A stretch of 22,597 nucleotides of DNA from a virus. The stretch lies in IMG/VR virus record IMGVR_UViG_3300044645_002177, positions 1 through 22,597 of that record. The stretch is one strand, 5' to 3'. Below the pieces are notes generated by a model. The model did no database searches. It saw only the letters and a list, made by a program, of their open reading frames with translations, and had not been told where the DNA came from. Both the position numbers and the translations under genes were made by a program. Position 1 is the first letter of the stretch. Each line of letters starts with the position of its first letter. Below are positions 5,618 through 22,597 of this stretch, piece by piece.

Positions 5618-7369
5618 ATGGATGTAAGTTTAGAATCTAAAGCATTGTCTCTGTTGGAATCTTATGAAGGTGGAAACAACTACATACTTGAACTTAAAAG
5701 AAAGTCACAAATAAATAAGAAGTTTTACCCAACAAGAAGTCAATCAGAGTACATTATAAATAACCATGACAAACAACCTAAGGTTGCCAAGAAGTGGGTT
5801 ATTTTAGATGCGTATTTTGCCAAAAAATTGGCAGACGATAAACTAATGACCGAAATACCAGAAAAGGTTTGGGTTGAAAAGTTACTTGCTGATAAAGAAA
5901 AGGCATATCACATTTGGGGTAAAATTACAGAAACACAAGAACTCCACGACTTTTGGTTACCAAAGGCGGCAATTATAAAAGACAACACGGTAAAAGATGT
6001 TGTTATTAGTTATGACAAATACTCTCACCGCCCCCCGTTAGAGCACCAAAAAGAAGCAATTCAAAAACTTGTTGAAAATAAAAAGTTTATCTTGGCCGAC
6101 GACATGGGTCTTGGTAAAACCACCTCAACAATTATTGCCGCTTTAGAAACAGGTGCTAAAAAAGTTTTGATAATTTGTCCAGCAACTTTGAAGATTAACT
6201 GGAAACGTGAAATTGAAAATTACTCTGATAAATCAATATTCATTTCAGAAGGAAAAAGTTTTAGTACAGAACACGATTTTGTTATCATAAACTATGACAT
6301 TATAAAAAACTTCCATGATAGTAAGAAAAAAGATGAATCTCAAATTTTTATTGCCAATTTTGATTTGGTGGTTGTTGATGAAGCACACTATATCAAAAAT
6401 CCTACGGCGCAAAGAACAAAACTAATTAACGATATTGCAAAAAAGGTTGACAGATTGTGGTTACTAACTGGTACCCCAATGACATCAAGACCCATGGACT
6501 ATTTCAACTTGTTGAGCCTTATTGAATCACCCGTTGCAAAAAATTGGATGGCTTACGCCATTAGATATTGTAATGGATATCAATTTAATGTTGGGGGTAG
6601 AAAAGTATGGAATGTAACAGGTTCATCCAACTTGGAGGAATTAAGAGACAGAACATCTCCTCTTGTATTAAGACGATTAAAAGAAAATGTTTTGGACCTT
6701 CCAGATAAAATTATTACACCAGTTTACCTTAGATTAAAATCAAAGGCTTATGAAGAGGTTATGGGTGAGTATTATGATTGGTATGATAAAAACCCTGAAG
6801 AATCTAAATCGTTGACGGTACAATTTACAAAGCTTACAAAAATTAGACAAATAATTGCTGATGAAAAAATTAATCAGACAATTGAAATTGCTGAAAACAT
6901 TATCGAACAAGATAAGAAGGTTATTATATTCTGTAACTTTACTGACTCATTAAATAAAATTTGTCAACATTTTGGTAAAACCGCAGTAAAGGTTGATGGG
7001 TCCATGACAAAACCAGAAAGACAACACAGTGTTGACTCTTTTCAAGAAAATGAAAAAGTTAAAGTTTTTGTTGGTAATATTAAAGCGGCTGGAGTTGGGC
7101 TAACACTGACCGCGGGGGAGGCTGTTATTATGAACGACCTATCTTTTTTACCGTCAGACCACGCTCAAGCAGAAGACAGAGCGTATAGATATGGACAGAA
7201 AAATAATGTTTTGGTTTATTATCCAATATTCGAAAACACCATTGAAGGTATTATCTACGATATCCTAAACAACAAGAAACAAGTCATCGCAACTGTAATG
7301 GGTGACAATCAAAATACATCAGATGCCGCTGAAGAAATTTTGAAGAGAATCAATGAAAGTAGAAAATAA
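5618..7369 (+). CDS. SNF2-family DNA helicase/translocase
   Basis: An ATP-dependent double-strand DNA translocase of helicase superfamily 2. Residues 1-130 form an N-terminal region without clear motifs. The first RecA-like lobe has Walker A ADDMGLGKTT (K167), the Walker B box DEAH at 254-257 and motif III LLTGTPM. The second lobe carries VIIFCNF, KVDGSMTKPERQ, a GVGLTLTAGEAVIMNDL segment and motif VI QAEDRAYRYGQ with R521 and R524. The layout and 583-residue size fit the compact SMARCAL1/phage type, which anneals or remodels replication forks. In T4 a different SF2 helicase, UvsW, handles stalled forks and recombination; a similar role here is inferred. All motifs are intact. It is the first gene of the plus-strand block and is divergent from the neck operon; no Shine-Dalgarno sequence precedes it. 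Confidence 0.93.
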   Translation: MDVSLESKALSLLESYEGGNNYILELKRKSQINKKFYPTRSQSEYIINNHDKQPKVAKKWVILDAYFAKKLADDKLMTEIPEKVWVEKLLADKEKAYHIWGKITETQELHDFWLPKAAIIKDNTVKDVVISYDKYSHRPPLEHQKEAIQKLVENKKFILADDMGLGKTTSTIIAALETGAKKVLIICPATLKINWKREIENYSDKSIFISEGKSFSTEHDFVIINYDIIKNFHDSKKKDESQIFIANFDLVVVDEAHYIKNPTAQRTKLINDIAKKVDRLWLLTGTPMTSRPMDYFNLLSLIESPVAKNWMAYAIRYCNGYQFNVGGRKVWNVTGSSNLEELRDRTSPLVLRRLKENVLDLPDKIITPVYLRLKSKAYEEVMGEYYDWYDKNPEESKSLTVQFTKLTKIRQIIADEKINQTIEIAENIIEQDKKVIIFCNFTDSLNKICQHFGKTAVKVDGSMTKPERQHSVDSFQENEKVKVFVGNIKAAGVGLTLTAGEAVIMNDLSFLPSDHAQAEDRAYRYGQKNNVLVYYPIFENTIEGIIYDILNNKKQVIATVMGDNQNTSDAAEEILKRINESRK

Positions 7370-8967: not shown

Positions 8968-10095
8968 ATGGCAGTATTACCAGAACCAGAAAGAAGTAGA
9001 ATATATACGAGAATCAAACATCAATTGGGTGCTCCACTTAGAAGTGTTGAACTTGAGGATGAAATGATGGACTCGTTGATGGAATTAGCGATTGGGGATT
9101 ATGAAGAATATATCCTTCAATGGTTAATTGATTCTCAATGGGTTAACCTTGTGAATTTAAACATGAACGAAAGGTCTGTAGCAAGAGCTTTGGTTACAAG
9201 AACTATGGATTTTGAACAACAGTTCAGTTATTCGTATTCTAAAATTGTCGGACTTCAAACCGAAGGACCATGGGTTTTAAAGAAAGATTACTTTATATTA
9301 AGTGCCAACACTCAAACTTACGAAATACCTGCGGGCAGAGAAGTTAACGAATTACTATGGTTTTCTAACCAAGCTTGGACCGCATTTGGTTTAGGTGGAA
9401 TGGGTGGATTCGGTATGGGTGGTGTTGGATTAGGGGCTAATGAAGCGGGATTTGCCCAAATGGGATATCAAGGCTCTTATTTTATGATGTCAGGTTTTGA
9501 TTACCTGATTAGAATGCAAGAAGCAAACATTTTAAATAGAATTTTAGGTGGTTCATTAACTTATAGAATTACAGGATTACCTGATGGTAAAAAGTTAATA
9601 CACTTATATAACACACCTGGTGGTAAGTTTAATTGGGCTAACTATAACCTATACGTTGGTAAAGCTGTTTGGTATTGGTATTACGATGTGGAACCTGATA
9701 GTAGAGGAGATTGTCTTAAAAATAATCCTGATATTATTAAATTACCTACGGATGTTCCAATTGAAGAATTGACTTGGACCGACTTAAACGTACCAGGGCA
9801 ACAATGGGTGAGAAGATGGTTTACCGCATACTGTAAAGAAACACTAGCAAGGGTTAGAGGTAAGTACAGTGGTAACTTGAAAACACCTGACACAGAAATT
9901 ACAATGGACTATCAAAGTTTATTGACCGAGGCAAAAGACGAAAAAACCAAATTGATTGAAGAATTAATTGGTGCTGAAGGTTGGTTAACAAGAATGAGAC
10001 CTGATAAAGTAATGGAGAGAGAAGCCTTAATTGCTGAAAACTTAAATAAGCAAATGAAATTTAGGGCTATGCCTCGTCAAATATACGTAATATAA
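8968..10095 (+). CDS. 13: Neck protein, gp13-like (head completion)
   Basis: In T4, gp13 with gp14 seals the filled head and provides the docking site for the tail. This 375-residue protein has an acidic helical N-terminus, a beta-rich middle, and a conserved-looking end: QQWVRRWFTAYCKETLARVRG, then TEITMDYQSLLTEAKDEKTKLIEEL. That end matches the T4-like gp13 pattern of an aromatic/basic helix, a T-M-x-Y/G segment and an EAK helix. Residues 140-169 are an unusual Gly/Met-rich insertion (GLGGMGGFGMGG) within the middle. T4 gp13 is 309 residues, so the insertion accounts for part of the extra length. It is on the opposite strand from the gp14/gp15-like genes, so the neck genes are split. A small virion-type gene follows after 4 nt. 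The family call is probable, not certain. Confidence 0.62.
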   Translation: MAVLPEPERSRIYTRIKHQLGAPLRSVELEDEMMDSLMELAIGDYEEYILQWLIDSQWVNLVNLNMNERSVARALVTRTMDFEQQFSYSYSKIVGLQTEGPWVLKKDYFILSANTQTYEIPAGREVNELLWFSNQAWTAFGLGGMGGFGMGGVGLGANEAGFAQMGYQGSYFMMSGFDYLIRMQEANILNRILGGSLTYRITGLPDGKKLIHLYNTPGGKFNWANYNLYVGKAVWYWYYDVEPDSRGDCLKNNPDIIKLPTDVPIEELTWTDLNVPGQQWVRRWFTAYCKETLARVRGKYSGNLKTPDTEITMDYQSLLTEAKDEKTKLIEELIGAEGWLTRMRPDKVMEREALIAENLNKQMKFRAMPRQIYVI

Positions 10096-10099
10096 ATTT

Positions 10100-10435
10100 A
10101 TGGCAATAGTAAAATCGATACCTTCAAGAAGAATTATCAACGGGGTGTCAATCAATACATCAGAAATATCTGTAGTTTCAGAATTAGATTATAGAACACA
10201 AGGTGAAAGTTGTGTAATTATTAGAGGTGTTACACAATCTTTTGTAACATTAGATTCATCAACTACTGACCACATTGTTGTTAAATCAATGACAAACCTC
10301 ACCATAAGACCTGATGTCGGTAAAATCGACGAGGAATATGATGAGGTTGTTGTAGATAAGTTTGCTTGTATTGAATTTAGATTTGTTGGTGGAAACTGGT
10401 ATATCCTTTCATCCGACGGACTTAAACAGTCATAA
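10100..10435 (+). CDS. Small virion-type beta-rich protein, 111 aa, unknown function
   Basis: A 111-residue protein starting MAIVKSIPSRRIINGVSINT and ending GGNWYILSSDG, with alternating strands and short loops and no helix-forming stretch. Similar small proteins with a WYILSSDG-type end occur beside structural genes in marine phages (my recollection, unverified), so a decoration or attachment role is plausible but unproven. It starts 4 nt after the gp13-like stop, so the two are very likely co-transcribed. The upstream TATAAATT overlaps the gp13 stop; no TATTTAT element is present. Its last 14 nt overlap the 3' end of the convergent DNA polymerase gene, leaving no room for a terminator between them. 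Confidence 0.65.
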   Translation: MAIVKSIPSRRIINGVSINTSEISVVSELDYRTQGESCVIIRGVTQSFVTLDSSTTDHIVVKSMTNLTIRPDVGKIDEEYDEVVVDKFACIEFRFVGGNWYILSSDGLKQS

Positions 10436-13145
10436 GTTTTTGTTCCCAACCTTCTTCAGCTAACTCATACATATAATGAGGGTCAAGTCCTCTTTTCTCC
10501 CAATATTTAAGTTCTTGCTCTGTAATATCTAATACGTCTTTTTGTAAATCGTCTTGGTCTCCTTGTCCTAATGGATGTCCATTTATTAATTCACATTGAG
10601 CCGCAGTAAATATACCACGTTTTTCAGGGTCGGCAACAATAAGTCCATTTCTAACATCGTCTTTAAATACAACCATAAGAGGTTCAATTCTTTTATTGAA
10701 GGTAACAACCGCTCTTGGTACATTATAATCACCAGTCAAATTAGGGTCATTGTCTAATATATCTTTATCTAACATATAACAGTTAAGTTGTACACCATCC
10801 CCTTTCTTTTGTACATCCCCATGAGATGCCTTAAGTCCATTGTTAACATACATTATAACGTCACCCAAATTAACATTTAAATTGTTTTCTATTGCAAGTT
10901 CCATGTGTGCCATTCTTGACATACTATTACCTGATTTAGTTTTTGTATTCAAACGTTTCTTGTAGTCATCAAGAGATAATTTAACTTTAGCTCGCTGTGC
11001 AATCTTGGATAGCGGTATTTGTTTATCAAAAATCTTTTGTAGGTATTCATAATAATATTCGACAAATTCTTTACCCTCACCCTTTAACAACATCTTAATA
11101 CCCTTATCAAGGAACTCCTCAATATAGATTGGAAGTTTCTTAGATTTAATACTATTACCTGTTAGTTTAATTTTACCCTTGGCATCCATAACCGCATAGT
11201 TCTTACGAGCCAAGTTAATACATGAAGGCCAAACACCGTCGGTGTCCAAAGCCATTTCACCCCTCATGAATATATCGTTGTACTCTGCAACATCTGCCTC
11301 AGGGCCATAATATTCTTTACCTAATTTAACTTTCCAATTCAATCCACGACCAACATACACTCTGTCTTTAGCTTCAGGTGGTGTCGAGAAGTTCACACCG
11401 TCCGTATCCATAACCAATGGAACATATCCTTTGGTCATAAAGAATCTAATCATTTGTCTAAGGTATTGTCTACCTGTACAAGTAATCTGTTCACCCATAT
11501 ACATGTCACCCCAAGCATAAACCTGTGGGGCGGATAATGCACCGAACATAGAGTTGATAAAGATTTTGATAGGTAATTGTTTATTACCGTATGATTCTGA
11601 TTTCTTCTTATCAATCGTATAGAATTCTTCCGCAAGGTTCTTGTATTTGATACGAGTATCACGGAACCATTTTAACATTCCCTTCATCGCACCCGTAACA
11701 TCACAGTCAGGGAAAACGTCGTGTACTAATTGAATAGAGGGGTATAGAGACGAAAAGTCGAGCTTAAGTACGTCTTTACTATATCCAACCTTAAGTAGTC
11801 TAGAAAGACCTCCTACGAAGTCTGTTTTTGATTCTTTCGCAGGTATTGCAAGGCTATGTTTATAAGACCACGCCAACATCAACATTTTCCATAATGTTGC
11901 GGTACCCATTGTTGAAACCCTTTCATATGTTGTTGGAATCATCGCAGCCAACAAGAATGAACCTTGGTTGAATTCTGAGTCAACCTTAAGGGTTTCATCT
12001 AAGTCATCATCAAGATATCTCTCAACAAGATTGTCTCCTGTGGTTTTAAGATATACGTCGGTTCTATTCTCACAGATTGCATCAATCTTTGGGTCCTGTC
12101 CAACCTTACGGTAGTTACCGTTTTGAGTATTTAACCAAAACTCTTCTTTCTTAGTATAGAACGGACCAATGTCTAAGTGGTCAATGTAAACTCGGTCAGG
12201 TGCTTCGGCATTAATAAATTGTGTAATGTATTTCAAACCCGCAGATTTAATACTTGAATTAATTGCTTGAGCTCTACGAACCGCGTGAATAATATCAATA
12301 ACGTTATAACCCCAAATAGAAGTTTGAGTATATGGCTCAACTTCGTTTGCAAGTTTCAACATACTCTCTTTTCTTGTAAACGAATGTTGTGGATGTAATG
12401 ATTTACAAATCTTTTTAGGGTCAATATTCAAAATAGAACATCTTTCAAATATCCAATGCCAGTCAAAGTTTGCCGAGTTATAACCACCAATAATACTTGG
12501 TTTTAGTTGGTCTATAATATCAAAAAATTCTATGATAGCGCCACGTTCCTGTGACTCATCAATACATTCAATAACTTTATGATACCCTTTATTTGTTTTG
12601 ATTCCAATCATGAATATACGACCGTCTTTTGGTTCCAACGAGGTCGTCTCCAAGTCAAACACCAATCGGGTAACTTGATTATAATCTTCAAATCCTTTGA
12701 ATAATCTTTTTTCTTTTGAAATAAGGTATTGTTCTACGGGAGGTAGAATCATAACTTTATCTTTAGTCCTTTCCCCCCAAGGGTCACAACCACCTTCTCT
12801 AAAAAACTGTACTAATTCACGATAACCTTTTAAAGACTTAACCATAAATGTTAAACCTTTTTCTAATCTTTCGTTGTCGTAAGTTTGTAGTTTTTCAATC
12901 ATGATACCATGTTTGGTCATGGCTTCTTTCTGAGCGGCTTTGGAACCACCATAGAAATTAATATCTCGTAAATCACCAACCCAAGCAAATGGAGTAAATG
13001 TGTCTTTACGGATTTCTTTTCCCTTACCTGGGATTTCCTTAACTTTAAAAATGGAGTTTGATGCATAGTCGAACTCAATGGCGACTATAAATTCTTCAGG
13101 GTCGTTTCCGTGTAGGAACGATTCAATTTCTTGTTCTGTAAACAT
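10422..13145 (-). CDS. 43: Family B DNA polymerase with 3'-5' exonuclease, gp43-like
   Basis: The replicative polymerase. At 907 residues it is close to T4 gp43 (898). The proofreading domain shows Exo I FDLETT (D164, E166), Exo II GYNSANFDW (D228) and an Exo III candidate Y-x3-D at Y377-D381. The polymerase core has motif A LDFSSLYPS (D463), motif B KIFINSMFGALS (K527 onward) and motif C MDTDGVNF (D580, D582). Motif C has Gly where most relatives have Ser (DTDG instead of DTDS); both catalytic aspartates are kept, so it should be active. The gene has a 96-nt upstream gap with a TATTTAT element, a 6-bp hairpin and a 10-bp palindrome, suggesting a structured leader. T4 gp43 represses its own translation through such a hairpin, so autoregulation is plausible. 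The 3' end overlaps the convergent virion gene by 14 nt. Confidence 0.96.
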   Translation of the reverse strand: MFTEQEIESFLHGNDPEEFIVAIEFDYASNSIFKVKEIPGKGKEIRKDTFTPFAWVGDLRDINFYGGSKAAQKEAMTKHGIMIEKLQTYDNERLEKGLTFMVKSLKGYRELVQFFREGGCDPWGERTKDKVMILPPVEQYLISKEKRLFKGFEDYNQVTRLVFDLETTSLEPKDGRIFMIGIKTNKGYHKVIECIDESQERGAIIEFFDIIDQLKPSIIGGYNSANFDWHWIFERCSILNIDPKKICKSLHPQHSFTRKESMLKLANEVEPYTQTSIWGYNVIDIIHAVRRAQAINSSIKSAGLKYITQFINAEAPDRVYIDHLDIGPFYTKKEEFWLNTQNGNYRKVGQDPKIDAICENRTDVYLKTTGDNLVERYLDDDLDETLKVDSEFNQGSFLLAAMIPTTYERVSTMGTATLWKMLMLAWSYKHSLAIPAKESKTDFVGGLSRLLKVGYSKDVLKLDFSSLYPSIQLVHDVFPDCDVTGAMKGMLKWFRDTRIKYKNLAEEFYTIDKKKSESYGNKQLPIKIFINSMFGALSAPQVYAWGDMYMGEQITCTGRQYLRQMIRFFMTKGYVPLVMDTDGVNFSTPPEAKDRVYVGRGLNWKVKLGKEYYGPEADVAEYNDIFMRGEMALDTDGVWPSCINLARKNYAVMDAKGKIKLTGNSIKSKKLPIYIEEFLDKGIKMLLKGEGKEFVEYYYEYLQKIFDKQIPLSKIAQRAKVKLSLDDYKKRLNTKTKSGNSMSRMAHMELAIENNLNVNLGDVIMYVNNGLKASHGDVQKKGDGVQLNCYMLDKDILDNDPNLTGDYNVPRAVVTFNKRIEPLMVVFKDDVRNGLIVADPEKRGIFTAAQCELINGHPLGQGDQDDLQKDVLDITEQELKYWEKRGLDPHYMYELAEEGWEQKLMTV

Positions 13146-13635: not shown

Positions 13636-15312
13636 TTATGACTCTTTACGAAGGTCTCTACTATAATGTTCGAATCTATCGTGTTCTGTTGGCGTTAGAA
13701 GTAATAAACCAGGATACAATTCGTCTTTCTTTACAAGTTGATACATATGACTCATCCATGTCTGTTCAAACGGATGTGCCCATGTTGTATCTAAAAACAT
13801 TTTTTGATTTCCTATTCTACTAACAATCTGAGGCCAGTTACAGTAATAAACTTCACCAATAGCATATGGTAATCCTTTGTGAGATAAAACTGCGTGGAAT
13901 TCTGTTTTTGGAGCATTAGGGTCTAACCCCATTTCAGGTAATCTATTTTTACCTGGCCAAAACTCTTCTCTCACATGTTGAGGTACGTTATACCAAGACC
14001 ATTGTGTTCCGTTGTCACCATAAAACTCACTATAGTTTAACTTTAAAAAATCAAAGTTTTCTTTTTTAATAATATCTAACGATTTAGTATATAAGTTTGG
14101 AACATATCTATTAAATCCGTTTCTACAAACAGACCCTTCGTTAGGATAAAAGAACATGTCGTCTTCAAAGAAAAGGTAATAATCTAAATCGGTTTCTTTT
14201 TGAAAATGTTCTGCAATCCATTGTCTACCACCACAAATACCTAAGTTATCTTTTTTGATGTGTTCAAAATCAAACTCTTCACAGATTTGCTTATACTCTT
14301 CGGTTGTCGATAAATCACTTGAGTTATCCAATAAAAACTTTTTTGTTTTATAAACATAGTCCTTGTCGTAGGCAATCATTGAATCAATTAAAGTTCTAAA
14401 CTGTTTTGGACTATTAAATGTTATAACATACAACCCAACCTTATTTGTGTCTAAAGAGTTATCAACTTTAATAGTGTTTTCATTTTTAACTTTAAGGGAA
14501 TCGTTTTTTAAATCTTCAAAAAACCTTCCAACCAATCCATTAGACTCTATTTCAAAATAATTAATTAAGTCAGAATGTTTGTAACACATAATACTGAATA
14601 TAGATTCTTCAGTTCCCATATATCCATCATCTAAAGTACTTTTAAGTAATCCATAATAGATTCCGTTCATATCCCCAATAGTATGTTTAGGTCCTCCAAA
14701 AAATCCACCTCGGGCAACTTTATTAACCTTAGCTCCCGCCAAAGAATTTAATTTGTTATATTCAAAACCATGAATTTCTTTTTCAGCACCATAAGGAAAA
14801 CATATGAATGAGAATTTAGAAATATATTTTGATAGGTTATCTAAAACTTTATCGTGAGTAAAATAACCAGGGTGAACAGTATTGGTTAATCCTCCGTCAA
14901 TCCAAAACATATATTCGGAGTTGAACTGGTCCATGATTTTTGCATCGTGTAACAAAAACATTTTTGACATTACAAGGGGATTATAATTTTCTAATCTTGC
15001 TTGTGTGGATTCTTTTAACCAACCAACTTGGTCATACCAATTAGAATTAGTCCTAATCTTTTGTATCATTGGAAAAAACTCAGAATTAGTAAACCAACTT
15101 AATGGTCTTGTAATAAACTGCGTGTTTTCTGAAGTTCTATGTTTGAATACAAATTCTTTTAATTCTTCATCTCCAAATACAATAAGGTTCTCTTCAACCT
15201 TTAACAGTTGTTCAAACTTATCCAAATAATGTTGAAAAGACCTACTCCATCCTTCAGTCAATTCTCCTCTACCAATATCCCAAATACCTGTTACTAAAGT
15301 TATGTTACTCAT
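13636..15312 (-). CDS. HtrL/YibB-like glycosyltransferase fused to a GT2-like domain
   Basis: A 558-residue two-domain protein. Residues 1-270 match the HtrL/YibB pattern: LVTGIWDIGRGE at the start, NLIVFGDEEL, YNPLVMSKMFLL, MFWIDGGLTNTVH (137-146), GGFFGG and GTEESIFSIM. After a charged linker, residues 290-558 form a GT-A-type domain beginning GLYVITFNSPKQFRTLIDSM, with LLDNSS, GICGGRQWIAEHF and a metal-binding acidic triad EDD at 383-385. Both domains probably use nucleotide sugars and build glycosidic bonds in the cytoplasm; acceptors cannot be read from sequence. It is the last of four overlapping genes (8-nt overlap with the preceding one). The N-terminal domain is paralogous to the 293-residue neighbour, suggesting duplication followed by fusion. 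Modification of host surface glycans is the alternative to modification of phage fibres. Confidence 0.8.
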   Translation of the reverse strand: MSNITLVTGIWDIGRGELTEGWSRSFQHYLDKFEQLLKVEENLIVFGDEELKEFVFKHRTSENTQFITRPLSWFTNSEFFPMIQKIRTNSNWYDQVGWLKESTQARLENYNPLVMSKMFLLHDAKIMDQFNSEYMFWIDGGLTNTVHPGYFTHDKVLDNLSKYISKFSFICFPYGAEKEIHGFEYNKLNSLAGAKVNKVARGGFFGGPKHTIGDMNGIYYGLLKSTLDDGYMGTEESIFSIMCYKHSDLINYFEIESNGLVGRFFEDLKNDSLKVKNENTIKVDNSLDTNKVGLYVITFNSPKQFRTLIDSMIAYDKDYVYKTKKFLLDNSSDLSTTEEYKQICEEFDFEHIKKDNLGICGGRQWIAEHFQKETDLDYYLFFEDDMFFYPNEGSVCRNGFNRYVPNLYTKSLDIIKKENFDFLKLNYSEFYGDNGTQWSWYNVPQHVREEFWPGKNRLPEMGLDPNAPKTEFHAVLSHKGLPYAIGEVYYCNWPQIVSRIGNQKMFLDTTWAHPFEQTWMSHMYQLVKKDELYPGLLLLTPTEHDRFEHYSRDLRKES

Positions 15313-16186
15313 ATATTCTATTAAATTCTTCTAATATTTTATAAAAACTTTTATTTTGTTGAAACAACTCTTCGGATGTTCCTCTTGGCGCATTATCTCT
15401 GCACCACCATATATCAAAATGCTTTCTTTCAAAAAGTTCTTTATGGTTATAAAACATGAGGGTCATAATGTGTTCTTCATGTGGTATACCTTTATCTTCA
15501 TTTATAATTTTCTCTACATAATCTTCAAATAAAGAAACAACTTCGTCCCACTTACTTTTGTGACCTCCAAAAAGACCACCAATTATATGAAGTCCTCTAT
15601 CGTATTCTTTATACCATTTTCTATCCACAGTACCAGACCAATAATTTCTATCGTTTTCTTTACCAAGAATTAAAAATTTGTCACCAGTATCTTCAATTAC
15701 ATTATTTAAAAAATTGTTGTTGAATAATGAACTTTCATAATACCTTTTAACCAAACCATTATCAGTAAGATATTTTAATGGTATTAATCCACAATGTGAT
15801 AAACCAGCATCAATCCAATAATAATAGTCATAAGATTTATCCTCATTCCACCACCAGTGAAATTTGGAATATTGAATCTCGATACATCTATCAGATTTTT
15901 TAGTTTCATCAATATTTTTATACTGATTAATCAAATCTTTAAACTTAGTTTGAGATATATCAAATACCTGAAACTTAAGTTTTTCAGGTGAAATATTATT
16001 TTCATTATAGAAAAACTCAATCAAAGAATCTAATTCTCTGTCTGAGGTATAACACAGAAAATCTGCGTCCGTCATTTTTAACAACGATAATAAACTGTAT
16101 CTGTAGTGGCCTCCTCTATTAACTCTACCCCCATATTCGGTACCATAAAGGTCACTATAGATTGATGTGATGAATTTAATTGACAT
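15305..16186 (-). CDS. HtrL/YibB-like putative glycosyltransferase
   Basis: A 293-residue single-domain relative of the N-terminal half of the next gene. Shared landmarks are FITSIYSDLYG at the start, YYYWIDAGLSHCG (121-133), IIGGLFGGHKSKW (201-213) and PHEEHIMTLMFYNH (236-248). The WIDAG/WIDGG motif probably supplies the metal- and sugar-nucleotide-binding acid. HtrL/YibB proteins occur in lipopolysaccharide and capsule loci, and their biochemistry is poorly defined. No signal peptide or membrane segment is seen. The gene overlaps its upstream neighbour by 11 nt and its downstream neighbour by 8 nt, so the four transferases are translated as a coupled set. The substrate is unknown; the location near Thr/Pro-rich fibre proteins makes virion glycosylation a reasonable guess. 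Confidence 0.72.
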   Translation of the reverse strand: MSIKFITSIYSDLYGTEYGGRVNRGGHYRYSLLSLLKMTDADFLCYTSDRELDSLIEFFYNENNISPEKLKFQVFDISQTKFKDLINQYKNIDETKKSDRCIEIQYSKFHWWWNEDKSYDYYYWIDAGLSHCGLIPLKYLTDNGLVKRYYESSLFNNNFLNNVIEDTGDKFLILGKENDRNYWSGTVDRKWYKEYDRGLHIIGGLFGGHKSKWDEVVSLFEDYVEKIINEDKGIPHEEHIMTLMFYNHKELFERKHFDIWWCRDNAPRGTSEELFQQNKSFYKILEEFNRIYE

Positions 16187-16922
16187 AGTAAAATTTATGA
16201 TGTTCGTTTTTGTCTTTCATTTCTTGAACTTTATATTGGTCCATAAACTCATTTGGTATTTTTCGTGGACACCACCTGTTCCAGTTATAAGTTTGCATGT
16301 ACCAATTATTATATACTCCTTCAGATATGTTTGAGTAGTTTGTTTTTTGTGGTGCGATAGGCAAAACAGGACAATAACTTTGATGTTTTTGTACTATGAA
16401 CCTATACGTATAATCATCTAAAGCAAAATAATATTCTCCACTTGTTGTGAACGCGGTTAGTGAAATATCAAATATTGTATCATAGATTGACTCATCATAG
16501 ATTACCATATTAGCACCATAAATTCCTCTACTTTCTTCGGGTGCTTCAGGAGTATTTGTCATATCAAATAACAAGTCATGTTTATCGCTAACATTGATTG
16601 GTCTATTTTGAGTTGGGCCCAAATTAAACATTGCAAATTTTAAGTCAGGACAATCATTTTCTATTTGTTCTAATAAATCTTTAGAATACGGCATAAACCC
16701 GCAGTCATCTTCAATAATCATAACTCTTGGGTACCCTCTTTCTTTTGCAATTTTAATAACTTCAAAAGTTGATTTAGTAATACCCATGTAAGAATTTGTA
16801 TCTATTGCCGAAAACCTTTCAAAGTCCCAACCAATATATTCCATTTCTTTTGTTATGGATTCCAGTCTGTCGGGTCTTCTATCAAGATTTATAACAAATT
16901 TTGGTATTTCTGAAAACTTCAT
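16176..16922 (-). CDS. GT25-like glycosyltransferase
   Basis: A 248-residue protein with the GT25 opening IPKFVINLDRRPDRLESI (residues 6-23), AIDTNSYMG, and the acidic motif VMIIEDDCGFMPYS with EDD at 71-73, then GANMVIYDESIYD. GT25 enzymes include lipooligosaccharide galactosyltransferases of Gram-negative bacteria and eukaryotic collagen galactosyltransferases. They are inverting GT-A-fold enzymes that use UDP-sugars. Length and motif spacing agree with the family. Its ATG shares a base with the stop of the GT60-like gene (TAATG), and its 3' end overlaps the HtrL-like gene by 11 nt. In the proposed scheme it would extend a glycan started by the GT60-like enzyme; this is inference from gene order. 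Donor and acceptor are not determined. Confidence 0.82.
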   Translation of the reverse strand: MKFSEIPKFVINLDRRPDRLESITKEMEYIGWDFERFSAIDTNSYMGITKSTFEVIKIAKERGYPRVMIIEDDCGFMPYSKDLLEQIENDCPDLKFAMFNLGPTQNRPINVSDKHDLLFDMTNTPEAPEESRGIYGANMVIYDESIYDTIFDISLTAFTTSGEYYFALDDYTYRFIVQKHQSYCPVLPIAPQKTNYSNISEGVYNNWYMQTYNWNRWCPRKIPNEFMDQYKVQEMKDKNEHHKFYYVN

Positions 16923-18184
16923 TAACTAACGTGATTGTGATTTAGTTGACCAGTTAATCTGTCACACCATCCTTTAGATTCTGAGTGTGGCCAAACAACC
17001 CAATATGACGGTAACATTGTTGTTGGAAACTCTCTCCAAACTTTACAATACTTATCAGGGTCTCTCATAAATCCAGCAATCTCATTCTTGTCGGCATCTT
17101 TTCTATATAAAGTTTCATCATTTGGACCATGGAATGCAACTACCCAAAAATCATAATCTGTTTCAGGAACACTTGAATAACCAACATCAATACAATGTTT
17201 GTAGATAGTAGAGAAACTGTTTTTCCATTCTGTCTCGTCTTCAATAACGGGACTTGGTGGATATTTCTTATCCAAACAATGTTGGTCTACCGCTCTTTTT
17301 TCAAATAACAAACCTGAATATCTTTCATATTCTTGAAGAGTACGAACAGTTCCGAAACCAAATGGACCTTCATGACCCTCTTGAGTTTCTCCATCCATTC
17401 CAAATAATTTTCTATTTGTTAAATGAGAATGTTTGTTTTTATCTCCCCATGTTTTGTCGTCATCCCACTGTTTGGTTCTACCCTTACGAGTGTACTCATG
17501 GTAAACCACAGGCATATGTGGATGGAATAAATCATAACCCCATGTGTAAGCTCTTGCTGCAATTGAAATCTCTTCTCCGTGGAAATAATATTCAGGGTTA
17601 TGTTGAACTTCGGTTGAGAACTCACCTAATGTAAAACAAAAGTGGGCAGAATAGAATCTTGACGGAACAGGTTTTGTCATTTCTCTCCAACCTGGAATTG
17701 TTTCAGGTAAAAAGAATACCGCACCTTCAGGAATAAACCTATCAAACGCCATTCTCCAAGCATCTGTTGCTCTTCCCGCTGGGTCATTTTCGGGGTCAAA
17801 AGATGGGACATAACCCGTAAGTAGAGGTTTCTTATGCCCATCTTTTTGAAGCCCCTTAATCATTTTAATTAACACATCATCCCAATCCTTAATGAACCTC
17901 ATGTGAGAATCAATTTGAAGTGTGTATGTTTCTCCGTCATAAAGTTGTTGTGTTAGGTTTCTTGCCCAACAAACTCCTTTGGCTTCTTCATATGGGATAT
18001 TTAAAATTTTAAAACGTTTGTCGTTTCTAAACTCGTCTAAATTATCGAATCCATCGGATTCACTGAATTGTCTTGCAATTGCAAAAACCAAGTTCTTAGG
18101 TTTCTTTGCATTTGCAATCATGTCTTTTATGGTTGGAACTAACTGAGGGTCCCTGTAAGATGCGATTTGAATAAAAATTTTCAT
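16922..18184 (-). CDS. GT60-like polypeptide GlcNAc-transferase (Skp1 GnT1 / mucin GlcNAcT type)
   Basis: A 420-residue transferase. The start IFIQIASYRDPQLVPTIKDM (residues 3-22) is the signature of the GlcNAc glycosyltransferase family (GT60). The metal-binding triad is DSH at 92-94 (LQIDSHMRF), followed by FYSAHFCFTLGEF, YYFHGEEISIAARAYTWGYDLFHPH (199-223) and the VVYHEYTRKG segment. Characterised GT60 enzymes add alpha-GlcNAc to hydroxyproline of Skp1 in Dictyostelium and to threonine of trypanosome mucins; both acceptors are polypeptides. That makes it the likely chain initiator of this operon, and the next genes upstream encode Thr/Pro-rich proteins. A terminator lies 28 nt upstream of the ATG, so expression needs readthrough or an unrecognised promoter; no TATTTAT is present. 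The family call is good; donor, acceptor and site are inferred. Confidence 0.82.
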   Translation of the reverse strand: MKIFIQIASYRDPQLVPTIKDMIANAKKPKNLVFAIARQFSESDGFDNLDEFRNDKRFKILNIPYEEAKGVCWARNLTQQLYDGETYTLQIDSHMRFIKDWDDVLIKMIKGLQKDGHKKPLLTGYVPSFDPENDPAGRATDAWRMAFDRFIPEGAVFFLPETIPGWREMTKPVPSRFYSAHFCFTLGEFSTEVQHNPEYYFHGEEISIAARAYTWGYDLFHPHMPVVYHEYTRKGRTKQWDDDKTWGDKNKHSHLTNRKLFGMDGETQEGHEGPFGFGTVRTLQEYERYSGLLFEKRAVDQHCLDKKYPPSPVIEDETEWKNSFSTIYKHCIDVGYSSVPETDYDFWVVAFHGPNDETLYRKDADKNEIAGFMRDPDKYCKVWREFPTTMLPSYWVVWPHSESKGWCDRLTGQLNHNHVS

Positions 18185-18253
18185 TTAAAATATATTTTGT
18201 TATAAAAATAAAAAACCCTCCACAAAAGTAGAGGGTTTTATTTATATTATTTT
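18182..18253. repeat. 72-bp intergenic duplication, copy A
   Basis: Identical at 68 of 72 aligned positions to 19809-19880. The segment runs from the ATG complement of the GT60-like gene through an AT-rich spacer and a terminator hairpin to the AT-rich flank. Both copies lie in the same orientation, each just downstream of a Thr/Pro-rich protein gene, so a larger unit was probably duplicated. Confidence 0.9.
18212..18239 (-). terminator. Rho-independent terminator after the 484-aa mucin-like gene
   Basis: On the minus strand an 8-bp stem, CCCTCTAC/GTGGAGGG with one G-U pair, closes a UUUU loop; flanking A/T pairs extend it and a run of seven T follows. On the plus strand the same position is a C-A mismatch, so the hairpin favours minus-strand RNA. 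It lies 22 nt past the mucin-like stop. Confidence 0.85.
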
Positions 18254-18261
18254 TTTTAATT

Positions 18262-19716
18262 TTAAACACAACCGTTAGGGTCTGATGAAGTAATTTGTCC
18301 TGCTCCACCTGTTACTTGGTACCAAGCGGTTCCATTAGAATAGAATCCATTAGGAACTACATCTGTAAGAGGTCTTCCAGTGGTTTCGTATAAGTATTCA
18401 CCTATGTTAGGTCCTACACCACCTGCAACTGAACCATAGATTGTTTGTGGAGAAGCTGAGAATGCTAAACAAGCGTCGTTAGCCGTTGCACCTGTACCTA
18501 AACTATATGTATACCATGCAAATGTTGATGTTGGAGTTTGAGTTGCAGTATTTGTTGGAGTTTGTGTTGGAGTTTCTGTTGGTGTGTTGGTTGGAGTTTC
18601 AGTTTGAGTAATTGTTGGTGTTGGAGTTGGTAATAATGAACAAAGTGTATAACCACCCGTTTCAAAACCTCCTGAAGTTAATTGTACAACATCTGAACCA
18701 TTACTATAGAATCCTGCCAAATCAATTGTAACAATTCCTGACGGGTCATTATAGAATTGAGAATTTTCGTTGAATATTGCCGTAAATGCATATAATGTTA
18801 CCGATACTCCCGCCTCACAAGCCTCATTAGAAGTTGTTCCTGAGAACACATTAAATGATTGAAGTGGTGATGTTGGAGTTGGGGTTGGAGTTGCGGTTAA
18901 TGTTGATGTTGGTGTTACTGTTGGTGTGCTAGTCGGAGTTGCTGTTGGTGAAGGACATACTGTAGTTCCAATAACGGTTGCACCCGATAAACATCCTGTT
19001 GGACCATCACAATCACTTAGCTGGTAAGTTATTCCATCAACATTATAAAATCCAACAGCATTACCTGTATTACCTTCAGAACTTGACCAGAATAAAGTTG
19101 ATGATGCAAAAAGTGGATTATTTCCAAAAAGAGTTGAAGTGTCTACACAACCACAAGCTTCAAGAGGGTCTACCTCACTTTTACAAACACTATTAAACTG
19201 ATATCTCACAACATTTGTTGGTGTTGGAGTGTTAGTTGCCGTTACACTAGGTGTTGGAGTTAGAGTTGTGGTTGAGCTAGGTGTTGGAGTTAGAGTTGTG
19301 GTTGAGCTAGGGGTTGGTGTATTAGTTGGAGTTTCTGTTTGCGTGTTAGTTGGTGTGGGTGTTGGAGTACCTGTTTCCGTGTTAGTTGGAGTTGGAGTAT
19401 TAGTTGCCGTATTAGTTGGAGTTGGAGTATTAGTTGCCGTAACACTTGGTGTTGGCGTATTTGTTGGGGTAGCAGAAGGTGTTTGCGTCGGAGTTGGAGT
19501 TATCGCAACTGGAGGAAACACTCCTTGATTTACTAATGAAATTACGTTTTTAAATGATGGTGCAATTGTATAAGTACCATTAATTACCCAAATATTTTTT
19601 CTTTGATTTGGTGTAAGCTCAACTTGATAATCCCATAATGCATCGTCACATCTTTGGTAACTAAAATTTACGGTAGTTGAACCCGTATTTGTAAGTGTAT
19701 ATTTGCTACATGCCAT
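18262..19716 (-). CDS. Mucin-like Thr/Pro-rich fibre/appendage protein with three small globular domains
   Basis: A 484-residue beads-on-string protein. Residues 1-70 are a small N-terminal domain (ACSKYTLTNTG, two early Cys). Three Thr/Pro tracts (72-168, 255-284, 363-398) consist almost wholly of T and P with N, S, E, Q. They separate three domains, each about 70-85 residues: 170-254, 287-359 and 399-484. The last two share an EAC/DAC motif, a T-x-Y-A/G strand, a GFYSNG turn and QLT/QVTGG; the first has a related GFYNVDGITYQL. No signal peptide is present, as expected for a virion protein assembled in the cytoplasm. The tracts resemble mucin O-glycosylation regions, and a GT60-like gene follows, but glycosylation is inferred. 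A TATTTAT lies 19 nt upstream and a strong terminator follows. Fibre, whisker or head decoration are all possible. Confidence 0.8.
   Translation of the reverse strand: MACSKYTLTNTGSTTVNFSYQRCDDALWDYQVELTPNQRKNIWVINGTYTIAPSFKNVISLVNQGVFPPVAITPTPTQTPSATPTNTPTPSVTATNTPTPTNTATNTPTPTNTETGTPTPTPTNTQTETPTNTPTPSSTTTLTPTPSSTTTLTPTPSVTATNTPTPTNVVRYQFNSVCKSEVDPLEACGCVDTSTLFGNNPLFASSTLFWSSSEGNTGNAVGFYNVDGITYQLSDCDGPTGCLSGATVIGTTVCPSPTATPTSTPTVTPTSTLTATPTPTPTSPLQSFNVFSGTTSNEACEAGVSVTLYAFTAIFNENSQFYNDPSGIVTIDLAGFYSNGSDVVQLTSGGFETGGYTLCSLLPTPTPTITQTETPTNTPTETPTQTPTNTATQTPTSTFAWYTYSLGTGATANDACLAFSASPQTIYGSVAGGVGPNIGEYLYETTGRPLTDVVPNGFYSNGTAWYQVTGGAGQITSSDPNGCV
19247..19306. repeat. Perfect 30-bp tandem duplication in the Thr/Pro tract
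   Basis: Two identical 30-bp units, 19247-19276 and 19277-19306, each encode ten residues reading STTTLTPTPS in cyclic order. Exact identity including silent positions points to a recent duplication. Confidence 0.9.
19381..19440. repeat. Second 30-bp tandem duplication in the Thr/Pro tract
   Basis: Units 19381-19410 and 19411-19440 differ at a single base and encode two copies of a ten-residue T/N/P/A repeat. Together with 19247-19306 this shows 30 bp (ten codons) as the preferred expansion step. Confidence 0.88.
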
Positions 19717-19735
19717 CTTATTTCTTATTTATCTA

Positions 19736-19742
19736 ATAAATA
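19736..19742 (-). promoter_or_regulatory. TATTTAT element before the 484-aa mucin-like gene
   Basis: It lies 19 nt before the ATG, followed by the A-rich stretch ATAAATAAGAAATAAG that ends at the start codon. This gives a short unstructured leader of the kind that supports initiation without a Shine-Dalgarno sequence. Confidence 0.45.
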
Positions 19743-19790
19743 CTAAGATTTTGGCTAATTTATTCAAGAAGAGTAAAAAAATATTTTTTG

Positions 19791-19811
19791 TTAAAAGTTA
19801 AATATCTTCAT
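19791..19811 (-). pseudogene. Relic start of a GT60-like gene (six codons then stop)
   Basis: Copy B of the 72-bp repeat includes the same ATG as copy A. Reading on gives MKIFNF and a stop, against MKIFIQ in the intact GT60-like gene; the first 13 bases agree except at two third positions, after which similarity is lost. It looks like the stump of a second transferase gene that was deleted or replaced. The stretch is short, so chance cannot be excluded on this part alone. Confidence 0.4.
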
Positions 19812-19880
19812 TTAAAATGTATTTTGTAATAAAAATAAAAAACCCTCCACGAAAGTAGAGGGTTTTAGTTATATTATTTT
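19809..19880. repeat. 72-bp intergenic duplication, copy B
   Basis: Partner of 18182-18253 with four mismatches. It lies between the 420-residue and 484-residue mucin-like genes and retains the terminator and a now useless start codon. With copy A it brackets the 484-residue gene, so recombination between them could delete or amplify that gene. Confidence 0.9.
19839..19866 (-). terminator. Rho-independent terminator after the 420-aa mucin-like gene
   Basis: Same stem as copy A on the minus strand (CCCTCTAC/GTGGAGGG with a G-U pair), with loop UUUC instead of UUUU, and followed by seven T. It begins 21 nt past the stop. The stem is unchanged between copies while the flanks and loop vary, suggesting selection for function. 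Confidence 0.85.
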
Positions 19881-19887
19881 AATTTTA

Positions 19888-21150
19888 TTAATCAGTAAAA
19901 ATGATTTCTATCAAGTCACTTTCCGAATATGGAGAACTAAATTCGTAATTTTGCGTTAGGGGTAGAGGACCCGAGAAACCTGGAGAAATTTGAGAACCAT
20001 TAGCACTGATATACATTTGGAAATTTCCTGTTCCTGCCATAATAACATTTATGGTCGTACCGCTAATGATATTTTCATGGAACGCGTTTCTAGTTGTACC
20101 ACTTGTTATTGGGTAACCGCCAACGGGACCAAGTACAGGAATTGTTCCACTAATTCCTGAAATTTCTTTATCACCAGTTGCAGTATTCACGAATCGGAAA
20201 TTTCTATATTCAGTTGGTGATGGTGTTAGAGTATTTGTTGGTGTATTGGTAGGAGTTGGTGTTGAAGTATGGGTTTCTGTTGGAGTAGGTGTTAATGTTG
20301 CCGTCTCTGTTGGAGTAGTGGTATTAGTTGGTGTTACAGTTGGTGTTGGTGTTGCTGTTTGTGTTGTTGTTGGTGTTGGTGTTGGACTAACACATCCTGT
20401 ATATCCTCCTGTTTCAGAACCATTCGAAAGTAATTGAACAACTAACCCATCATATGAGTAGAATCCAGTCATGTCTGTTGTAACAGGACCAATAAAATTA
20501 TTATAGAAGAATAAGTTTTCGTCAAACTGACTATTGTCACCATAGATTGTTGTTGGGATATTAATCTGAGAACACGCCTCTTCAAATGAAGAACCTGTGT
20601 AAACCGCAAATCCAAATCTATTGTGAGTTGGTGTTGGTGTCTGAGTTGGCGTTGGTGTCTGAGTTGGTGTTTCAGTGTTAGTTGGAGTTGGGGTACTTGT
20701 TGACGTTTCGCTCGGAGTATTTGTTGGTGTTTCAGTGTTAGTTGGAGTATTAGTTGGTGTTTGAGTATTAGTTGAAGTATTTGTTGGAGTTTGAGTTGGA
20801 GTTTCCGATGGTGTATTTGTTGGCGTTTCTGTATTTGTAGGTGTAGGTGTTGATGTTGTGGTATTAGTTGGAGTTATTGTAACGGTGTGAGTATTAGTTG
20901 GAGTTGGCGTAGGAGTTTCAGTATTAGTCGGAGTTGGTGTAGGTGTTGGTGCTGGAACTACAACAGTGTATGTATACGCATAAGTTGGGACATAACAATT
21001 ATATGTTCCGTAAAAATAATCCGCAACATAACTGAATGGAAAAACTTGTTCTCCCAAATCAACAGTTCCACCTGTCTGAGGTAAAAAGGTAACTTCGGTT
21101 GTTAAACCACTTAAACTTACACTAAAAATTGATACACCACAATCTGCCAT
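19888..21150 (-). CDS. Mucin-like Thr/Pro-rich fibre/appendage protein with two long tracts
   Basis: A 420-residue modular protein. Residues 1-64 are a small N-terminal domain ([15 protein letters not shown], aromatic-rich [22 protein letters not shown]). A 110-residue Thr/Pro tract (67-176) leads to a globular domain at 178-254 ([50 protein letters not shown]) closely related to the second domain of the 484-residue neighbour. A second tract (256-313) leads to a different C-terminal domain of about 105 residues, beta-rich with a [20 protein letters not shown] core. No signal peptide or membrane anchor is present. A TATTTAT element lies 4 nt before the start, and a terminator follows. Probably a flexible virion spike or fibre that is a target of the downstream transferases; both statements are inferred. 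Confidence 0.8.
20623..20952 (-). repeat. Thr/Pro tract (residues 67-176 of the 420-aa protein)
   Basis: About 110 codons built from T-P-T-N-T-E/Q steps, the longest tract in the window. Repeat units are less exact at DNA level than in the neighbouring gene, so this tract looks older or more diverged. Confidence 0.85.
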
Positions 21151-21154
21151 GTTT

Positions 21155-21161
21155 ATAAATA
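21155..21161 (-). promoter_or_regulatory. TATTTAT element 4 nt before the 420-aa mucin-like gene
   Basis: It lies in the 30-nt gap after the 188-residue gene, with AAAC between the element and the ATG. Such close spacing implies a leaderless or nearly leaderless mRNA if it is a promoter. Confidence 0.45.
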
Positions 21162-21180
21162 TTCAAAAAATTTTATTTAA

Positions 21181-21747
21181 TTAACACACACCAACATTTA
21201 TTACCAAGGTTCCGCTTAACTGAACAAACTTGGCTCCATCGGATATTGTAAACTTACCACCGATTGGCGGAATTGTTAATTCTCTATTACCATATACATG
21301 GTCCCCAACTTCTAAAGTGTTGAATGGTTTTGTGGTAAAGACCTTAACATTTGCAGGATTTGCAATCATATTAACCGACTCGCAAACATTTTGATACCAT
21401 CCACCACCTCTGAGATTTCTTTCATAAATTGGTGACGGGGTGTTTGAAGGTGTTGCCGTATTTGTGGGTGTTGGAGTTTGTGTAATTGGGGTACAAGATA
21501 AACTAACCGTTGGAGTAATTGTTGGAGTGATACTTGGAGTTGGTGTATTTGATGGACACAAACCCATATTCACAATACTTAATGGACCACTATAACTTTC
21601 TTTAACTAAGTCGTCAGCACAAACATATTGAGTGTCTAATGGAGATATACTTGAAACACTGATAATACCAGTACATCCTGTAAATCTATAATAACCGTCT
21701 TCAACACTGTTATAATTTGTTATTCGATATTGATTACAAAAACTCAT
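21181..21747 (-). CDS. Small mucin-like Thr/Pro-containing virion-type protein, 188 aa
   Basis: A shorter member of the same set. Residues 1-65 are an N-terminal domain whose start (FCNQYRITNYNS, several Cys) echoes ACSKYTLTNTGS of the 484-residue protein. Residues 66-107 are a Thr/Pro/Ser tract (SNTPTPSITPTITPT, TPTPTNTATPSNTPSP). Residues 110-188 form a C-terminal domain (GGGWYQNVCESVNM, VFTTKPFNTLEVGDHVYGN, FTISDGAKFVQLSGT) of the general C-x-x-V ... V-x-L-S type seen in the larger proteins but divergent. The gap to the upstream fibre-like gene is 23 nt and contains no TATTTAT, so it is probably co-transcribed with it. Role is presumed structural; no function is recognised. Confidence 0.68.
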   Translation of the reverse strand: MSFCNQYRITNYNSVEDGYYRFTGCTGIISVSSISPLDTQYVCADDLVKESYSGPLSIVNMGLCPSNTPTPSITPTITPTVSLSCTPITQTPTPTNTATPSNTPSPIYERNLRGGGWYQNVCESVNMIANPANVKVFTTKPFNTLEVGDHVYGNRELTIPPIGGKFTISDGAKFVQLSGTLVINVGVC

Positions 21748-22303: not shown

Positions 22304-22597
22304 TTATACGAATCTTGGAGCCAAGTAATTGTATTGTTGTGTTATTTCTGCAAGGTTTAATTGTCTGTTATAGAAATACATGTTGGCAACATGTCCCCAA
22401 GGTTGAGCTACAACATCATTATTGCCCCATCCCCAATGTGTGGTTCCACCAGCACCCGCACTGATTGTGATACCCACTTGGGAACCATTTATGTAGAATG
22501 TTTGAGATGTATTTGTTCCAACTACAGCATACTGAACCCAAACTTCAGCTGAAGATGCAACATCATATCCCGAACTTTTGAAAGAAGTATCCCAATA
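22304..22597 (-). CDS. LamG/concanavalin-like lectin domain protein, C-terminal 97 residues only
   Basis: The frame is open from the right window edge to a stop at 22304-22306, so only the C-terminus of a longer gene is visible. The 97 residues include AEVWVQYAVVGTNTSQTFYINGSQVG, a GGTTHWGWGN loop, and the end GHVANMYFYNRQLNLAEITQQYNYLAPRF. The last part, Y-N-R-x-L-x-x-x-E-I-x-x-x-Y-N, is the hallmark of LamG-type (Laminin_G_3) jelly-roll domains, which bind glycans or proteins. In phage appendage clusters such domains sit on fibres and contact the host surface. The start, full length and N-terminal domains lie outside the window. Confidence 0.8.
   Translation of the reverse strand, partial: YWDTSFKSSGYDVASSAEVWVQYAVVGTNTSQTFYINGSQVGITISAGAGGTTHWGWGNNDVVAQPWGHVANMYFYNRQLNLAEITQQYNYLAPRFV

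Follow-up and report, generated by a model that had tools for sequence, protein, structure and literature searches.

A predicted GT60 glycosyltransferase beside threonine/proline-tract genes points to probable mucin-type O-glycosylation in phages

Organisation of the gene block

IMG/VR virus record IMGVR_UViG_3300044645_002177 is a 22.6-kb viral record (22,597 nucleotides; "the window" hereafter means this whole stretch of DNA), and its minus strand carries a block in which a predicted glycosyltransferase of family GT60 adjoins three genes for proteins with long threonine/proline (T/P) tracts. The order along the minus strand is a lectin-like gene at the window edge, the three T/P-tract genes, the GT60 gene and finally three transferase-like genes. 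The GT60 gene and the three genes downstream of it overlap successively by 1, 11 and 8 bases, an arrangement as in a single transcription unit. A DNA polymerase (10422-13145), a helicase (5618-7369) and a protein matching tail sheath (1-3192) share the window with the block. The range 16922..21747, assigned to the system in the original prediction from the sequence, contains the T/P genes and the GT60 gene; the three downstream transferase genes described with them lie outside it. The features of the block are as follows.

22304..22597, minus strand: lectin-like (Laminin_G_3) gene truncated by the window edge, with only its C-terminal part present; probable adhesin
21181..21747, minus strand: T/P-tract protein 3, 188 amino acids, single 46-residue tract, proposed acceptor; matches phrog_15511 (unknown function)
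19888..21150, minus strand: T/P-tract protein 2, 420 amino acids, two tracts, proposed acceptor; matches phrog_15511 (unknown function)
18262..19716, minus strand: T/P-tract protein 1, 484 amino acids, three tracts between small domains, adjoins GT60, proposed acceptor
16922..18184, minus strand: predicted GT60-type polypeptide N-acetylhexosamine (HexNAc) transferase, 420 amino acids; PF11397, phrog_24687, model fold
16176..16922, minus strand: GT25-like transferase, 248 amino acids, possible extending enzyme; PF01755
15305..16186, minus strand: GT-A-fold protein, 293 amino acids, possible extending enzyme; predicted structure, no Pfam match
13636..15312, minus strand: HtrL_YibB-like protein, 558 amino acids, possible extending enzyme; PF09612, residues 3-252

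Tracts were defined by windows of 30 amino acids with at least 30% T, at least 20% P and at least 65% T, P and S together. By this measure they cover 195/484, 201/420 and 46/188 residues of T/P proteins 1, 2 and 3, and the proteins resemble beads on a string, with segments of 54-102 residues alternating with tracts of 40-127 residues. The three consecutive T/P genes originally predicted are present, with longest tracts of 108 and 127 amino acids where about 110 had been given, but the description "almost pure" does not hold, as T and P make up 120/195, 129/201 and 25/46 of the tract residues. Threonine predominates over serine across the three genes (79, 88 and 14 versus 14, 10 and 6), and each gene uses all four threonine codons; the tracts therefore look as if they are kept as protein, beyond a mere DNA repeat. 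Shuffling the bases of the window 200 times produced no open reading frame (ORF) with a T/P tract. Dense Thr/Ser/Pro-rich domains, which characterize mucin-type acceptors, are thus found in three neighbours of the GT60 gene.

Predicted enzymes

The 420-residue protein matches the GT60 family (PF11397) at 224.4 bits (cut-off 21), as the original assignment of a GT60-like transferase beside the T/P genes had it, and the PHROGs glycosyltransferase family phrog_24687 with 543 bits. PF11397 also scored above its cut-off in 13/18 records of one further sample and in many of the large T/P-selected contigs discussed below. Published work describes GT60 as polypeptide alpha-N-acetylglucosamine (GlcNAc) transferases that differ from the animal N-acetylgalactosamine (GalNAc) transferases mainly in having no ricin-like domain (PMC8724618). 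Skp1 Gnt1 and one Trypanosoma cruzi enzyme belong to this family (PMC6939170), and published GT60 enzymes initiate protist mucin-type O-glycans (PMC8724618, PMC6939170).

From 193 GT60 ORFs of 380-480 amino acids (shorter and longer GT60 ORFs were left out) we derived a non-redundant set of 74; the resulting alignment of 75 rows, 74 of them different, spans 38-100% identity to the window protein. D92-S93-H94, E205 and H229 are present in all 75 rows. From their spacing and the GalNAc-T2 numbering, D92-S93-H94 and H229 would be metal ligands, with H229 what we take to be the counterpart of the distal metal-binding histidine. The DxH motif of GalNAc-transferases is described as binding a divalent ion (PMC6939170).

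An AlphaFold model built from a 72-row alignment (pLDDT, the predicted local distance difference test score, 92.7) divides the protein into a GT-A domain at about residues 1-305 and a C-terminal beta-rich part at about 317-413. When this model was compared with the PDB, the first 40 chains found by Foldseek were all polypeptide GalNAc-transferases, as were the top 29 entries in VIA-align (Z 19.0-22.2; next entry 16.6), with a root-mean-square deviation of 3.2-3.9 Å over 253-282 residues for 28 of the 29 and of 7.0 Å over 310 residues for rank 29. The predicted fold of the GT60 enzyme is therefore nearest to that of the mucin-initiating polypeptide GalNAc-transferases, an outcome of the originally suggested family and structure searches that leaves the polypeptide-acting assignment standing. 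Neither the single protein (E<=1) nor the 72-row profile (E<=10) reached any PDB chain by sequence, so that the link to GalNAc-transferases rests on fold. NCBIfam searches at E<=0.01 returned nothing for the GT60, GT25-like or 15305-16186 proteins. No ricin-like domain was matched in the 420-residue protein by Pfam at E<=0.1, and the C-terminal part is barely covered by the fold comparison. This confidently modelled beta-rich part, with invariant W398 and W406, lies where animal GalNAc-transferases carry their lectin domain.

The prediction of three more overlapping transferase genes agrees with family matches for two of them and, for the third, with a structural model. The 16176-16922 product matches GT25 (PF01755) with 36.1 bits (cut-off 24), its best stretch being residues 7-44 only, and the 13636-15312 product matches HtrL_YibB (PF09612) with 82.3 bits (cut-off 24.1). 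The 15305-16186 product has no Pfam match at E<=0.1, and its model (pLDDT 95.8) has a GT-A-like fold whose best VIA-align matches, the first domain of LARGE1 and a GT6 enzyme, are tied (Z 14.8 and 14.4); the Foldseek list for this model also includes nucleotidyltransferases such as IspD. On the strength of its modelled fold, it may be a GT6/GT8-like extending enzyme. HtrL_YibB matches were found in 6/7 GT60-bearing contigs tested, in 1/7 T/P contigs without GT60 and in 0/7 random contigs. A T/P-rich contig of 323 kb (L258, G053) has an HtrL_YibB match and no PF11397, and might use a different initiating enzyme.

Distribution of the gene pair in viral genomes

The pairing of GT60 and T/P genes was examined across whole records by counting a DNA pattern for T-P-T-x-T-P-T on both strands, with the reversed form as control. 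All 34 GT60-bearing records tested that reach 100 kb had T/P codons; they come from three samples (6/6, 6/6 and 22/22) with 14-90 sites per record (control 0-1), 3-116, and 4-74 (control 0), respectively; the 34 include several near-copies, and two have only 3 sites. Left out of this test were L051, L055, phage CM1 and GT60 contigs found by the polymerase search only, such as L086, L108, L139 and L156. T/P codons were absent from 14 random contigs of 52-395 kb (0/14) and from six jumbo relatives of XacN1 that lack PF11397 (Atu_ph07, SCTP-2, RaK2, 121Q, CBB and GAP32; 0/6), the XacN1/RaK2 group of complete jumbo phages being taken as drawn in PMC5852040. The random controls came from an arbitrary 14-base pattern, for which 80 of 120 loci were listed; of these 80, the 14 whose contigs reach about 52 kb were tested. 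Among sequenced phages, both GT60 and T/P codons are found in XacN1 and RAS14, and a relative of the window GT60 (E<=1e-5) occurs in only 3 of the 50,697 phage records of INPHARED.

In the reverse direction, a codon search for TPTPTNTPT returned at least 119 stretches, against only 5 for the reversed pattern in the whole collection. Among the 80 listed of these at least 119 loci, the 18 with contigs of at least 100 kb were taken, and PF11397 was present in 11/18, compared with 0/14 random contigs (Fisher p 0.0004; p 0.008 if only the 7 random contigs that reach this length are used). One contig (G049) enters both directions of the test. The co-occurrence in relatives that was proposed as a check is thus widespread: the pairing recurs beyond controls, yet it is not strict.

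Gene order was followed in four viral-contig searches seeded with the GT60 proteins of the window, XacN1 and two further contigs (L180 and L198), which yielded the best 80 of 363, 17, 68 and 38 loci, respectively, and partly overlap. The upstream counts are restricted to loci whose sequence extends 1 kb or more upstream of GT60. Among these, the end of a T/P gene falls in that first upstream kilobase in 70/71 loci of the window set (best 80 of 363), 10/61 of the L180 set and 19/35 of the L198 set; in the L180 set, a T/P gene starts within 1 kb downstream in 36/68 loci. An apparent exception in the window set, L069, was rejected as a scoring artefact: its T/P ORF ends at 1992 and the tblastn match starts at 2072, while the mechanical ORF start lies earlier. 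In a tree of the 75 rows, built by a short search that leaves many forks open, the T/P gene is upstream in some clades and downstream in another: it lies upstream in 28 rows, downstream in 15 and on both sides in 2, while 9 rows have one within 10 kb, 15 have none within that distance and 6 have a short flank. Overall, 37/62 non-redundant GT60 genes with flanks have a T/P gene no more than 1 kb away; the other ORFs at these loci would predict 13.6. Two adjacent GT60 genes in one T/P-rich contig (L219, G047; 10086-12240) suggest a duplication, perhaps with a division of acceptor sites.

The short stretches around the 80 listed T/P loci (of at least 119) include GT60 in 10 and none in 70. No clear substitute transferase was found at these 70 GT60-less stretches among the 102 of 214 neighbour ORFs scanned and the 25 of 36 families viewed; the transferases encountered were GT4-type families (2 members), HtrL (1) and GT9 (1). 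One 13-kb stretch without GT60 contains a 4239-residue open frame (L225:508-13224) with a T/P tract over 4183 residues. In a polymerase-seeded set of 80 loci, three (L153, L154 and L160) lack both GT60 and a T/P gene locally; the L154 contig has both farther along, while the whole L153 and L160 contigs (37.7 and 21.7 kb) have neither. L152 and L162 (16 and 22 kb) also have neither.

Several matches connect T/P proteins with virions. The XacN1 T/P genes ORF369 and ORF370 adjoin sheath and sheath-completion genes, and ORF370 matches a virion structural family, phrog_12736. A T/P protein of a relative (L004) has LamG lectin domains (130.9 bits) and matches another virion structural family, phrog_8510, which is also matched by the lectin-like product at the window edge (22304..22597; E 9e-4), whose PF13385 score of 25.2 bits is under the cut-off of 27.6. 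Matches of the other T/P proteins are confined to families of unknown function. At least two virion glycoproteins were reported in XacN1 by its authors (PMC5852040), which is the nearest experimental support for the proposed role of GT60.

Interpretation and known systems

We consider it likely that the GT60 enzyme O-glycosylates the phage's own T/P tracts, and in the same degree likely that a pathway of mucin-type O-glycosylation, encoded by the phage and at work in the cytoplasm, has the phage's virion fibre or adhesin proteins as substrates. In such a pathway, the beads-on-a-string T/P proteins would be synthesised in the host cytoplasm, where GT60, as a metal-dependent GT-A polypeptide HexNAc-transferase, would take a sugar, by analogy GlcNAc, from a nucleotide-linked donor and attach it to tract threonines. 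The GT25-like, GT6/GT8-like and HtrL-like enzymes may extend this first sugar, and the glycoproteins would then enter the particle as stiff, protease-resistant stalks bearing lectin-like domains. Possible benefits include stiff, hydrated and protease-resistant fibres, adhesion, and masking. The gene content, the family and fold of the enzyme, its invariant residues and a co-occurrence exceeding that of the controls are computed results; which protein is the acceptor, which sugar is donated, whether it is extended, whether the products sit in the virion of this phage and what they confer are our inferences. The phage mucin-type O-glycosylation first read from the sequence is accordingly backed in its enzyme family, fold and gene co-occurrence, while its GlcNAc, threonine acceptor, extension and benefit keep the conditional form given here. 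We lean slightly towards the broader proposal that the full pathway (GT60 initiator, GT25-like, GT6/GT8-like and HtrL-like extenders, mucin-like acceptors) is a widespread virion armouring of large aquatic phages, forming bottle-brush glycosylated fibres; this would account for the large share of coding that such phages give to Thr/Pro tracts.

Several observations weigh against O-glycosylation of the phage's own tracts. Many GT60 contigs are closely related, so that the counts are not independent. One T/P-positive GT60 contig (187,644 bases) has 19 matches to the reversed pattern as well. Among GT60 contigs selected mainly for having no nearby T/P gene, 10/21 are without T/P codons anywhere, all of them under 100 kb; a 39.7-kb GT60 contig likewise has none, and L129 (19 kb) has T/P codons without GT60. 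In the XacN1 set, which includes two phage records, only 2/19 GT60 genes have a T/P gene ending less than 1 kb upstream. The XacN1 glycoproteins, whose identity is not named in the accessible text of PMC5852040, could stem from another transferase (ORF328) or from the host. Finally, PF11397 is missing from 7/18 large T/P-selected contigs, and tracts therefore occur without GT60.

This last point also suits the main rival explanation, in which the transferases alter a host surface polysaccharide, such as lipopolysaccharide (LPS), against superinfection, the fibre genes adjoin because both concern the cell surface, and the T/P tracts are plain spacers. The Pfam description ties GT25 to LPS genes, and HtrL is likewise linked with LPS genes. 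However, the GT60 fold is nearest to enzymes acting on polypeptides rather than LPS, and T/P tracts accompany GT60 even where the genes are far apart, which surface modification does not predict; we regard this explanation as improbable. Less probable still is that GT60 is a polypeptide transferase mainly targeting a host protein, in the manner of an effector, with T/P stalks merely accompanying it: known GT60 enzymes can act on one cellular protein, for example Skp1 (PMC6939170), but genome-wide T/P co-occurrence and repeated adjacency on either side of the gene speak against this reading. Decoration of hypermodified phage DNA by the transferase cluster, as in T4, would fit the weak matches of the 16176-16922 and 13636-15312 products to the DNA-glucosyltransferase family phrog_842 (E 2e-3 and 7e-4). 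For the GT60 protein itself, neither Pfam nor PHROGs gives a match to a DNA-glucosyltransferase family at E<=0.1, no search having been aimed at base-modification genes, and the fold leads in another direction; of the three, this reading is the least credible, with very little chance of being correct.

Mucin-type O-glycosylation is usually treated as a eukaryotic trait. If glycosylation of the phage's own tracts is correct, phages would be a rich source of cytoplasmic polypeptide HexNAc-transferases whose acceptors are encoded nearby; the T/P tracts of jumbo phages would gain a possible rationale, and virions a further kind of surface chemistry with a bearing on adhesion, stability and recognition. 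The presence of the same gene pair in the sequenced, cultured phages XacN1 and RAS14 makes the idea directly testable. Phage virion glycosylation is already known, and the mucin-type version appears to be new; no paper on a phage GT60 or on a GT60-T/P pairing was found in the openly licensed PMC literature, a weak absence as only that literature was searchable. The novelty is limited, since virion glycoproteins had already been suggested in such a phage, XacN1.

The phage enzyme falls in the same Pfam family as the protist GT60 enzymes (Dictyostelium, T. cruzi, Skp1 Gnt1). Their mucin-type members have T/S/P-rich acceptors resembling the phage T/P proteins (PMC8724618), and cytosolic activity, as proposed for the phage enzyme, is reported for Skp1 Gnt1 (PMC6939170). 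In contrast to the protist enzymes, the phage gene adjoins putative acceptor genes, and its protein has the extra C-terminal beta-rich part. In fold, the animal GT27 polypeptide GalNAc-transferases resemble the model of the phage GT60 from residue 1 to about residue 305 (best Z 22.2), and their DxH motif (PMC6939170) has a presumed counterpart in D92-S93-H94, whereas the phage protein has no sequence match to solved chains and no Pfam ricin-like domain; GT27 enzymes act in the secretory pathway, while the phage GT60 is presumably cytoplasmic. Glycosylated mycobacteriophages (Freeman et al. 2023) bear glycans on virion proteins, as proposed for the window phage, but at the C-termini of capsid and tail-tube subunits rather than on T/P tracts (PMC12619734).

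Also close to the window phage is the Xanthomonas jumbo phage XacN1, which has a GT60, relatives of the 15305-16186 and HtrL-like proteins, T/P proteins and reported glycoproteins (PMC5852040). Its GT60, ORF334, is 44.8% identical to that of the window and, unlike the latter, does not adjoin a T/P gene, although XacN1 encodes many T/P proteins (among them ORF232-237, 350, 369, 370, 372 and 384); relatives of 15305-16186 (L082:15709-16566) and of HtrL lie downstream. The accessible text of PMC5852040 mentions neither GT60 nor T/P tracts, and states that virion mass-spectrometry data were deposited (PXD008065). At about 216551-223508 of AP018399.1, the XacN1 GT60 gene is followed by carbamoyltransferase-like, 15305-16186-like and HtrL-like genes, and the glycan might be carbamoylated; XacN1 is annotated with a carbamoyl transferase here, and the NodU match of this neighbour protein falls below cut-off. 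Elsewhere in the same genome (272200-280671), a T/P protein of 2823 amino acids with 395 tract residues also has a domain matching glycerophosphodiester phosphodiesterase (GDPD) at 60.7 bits.

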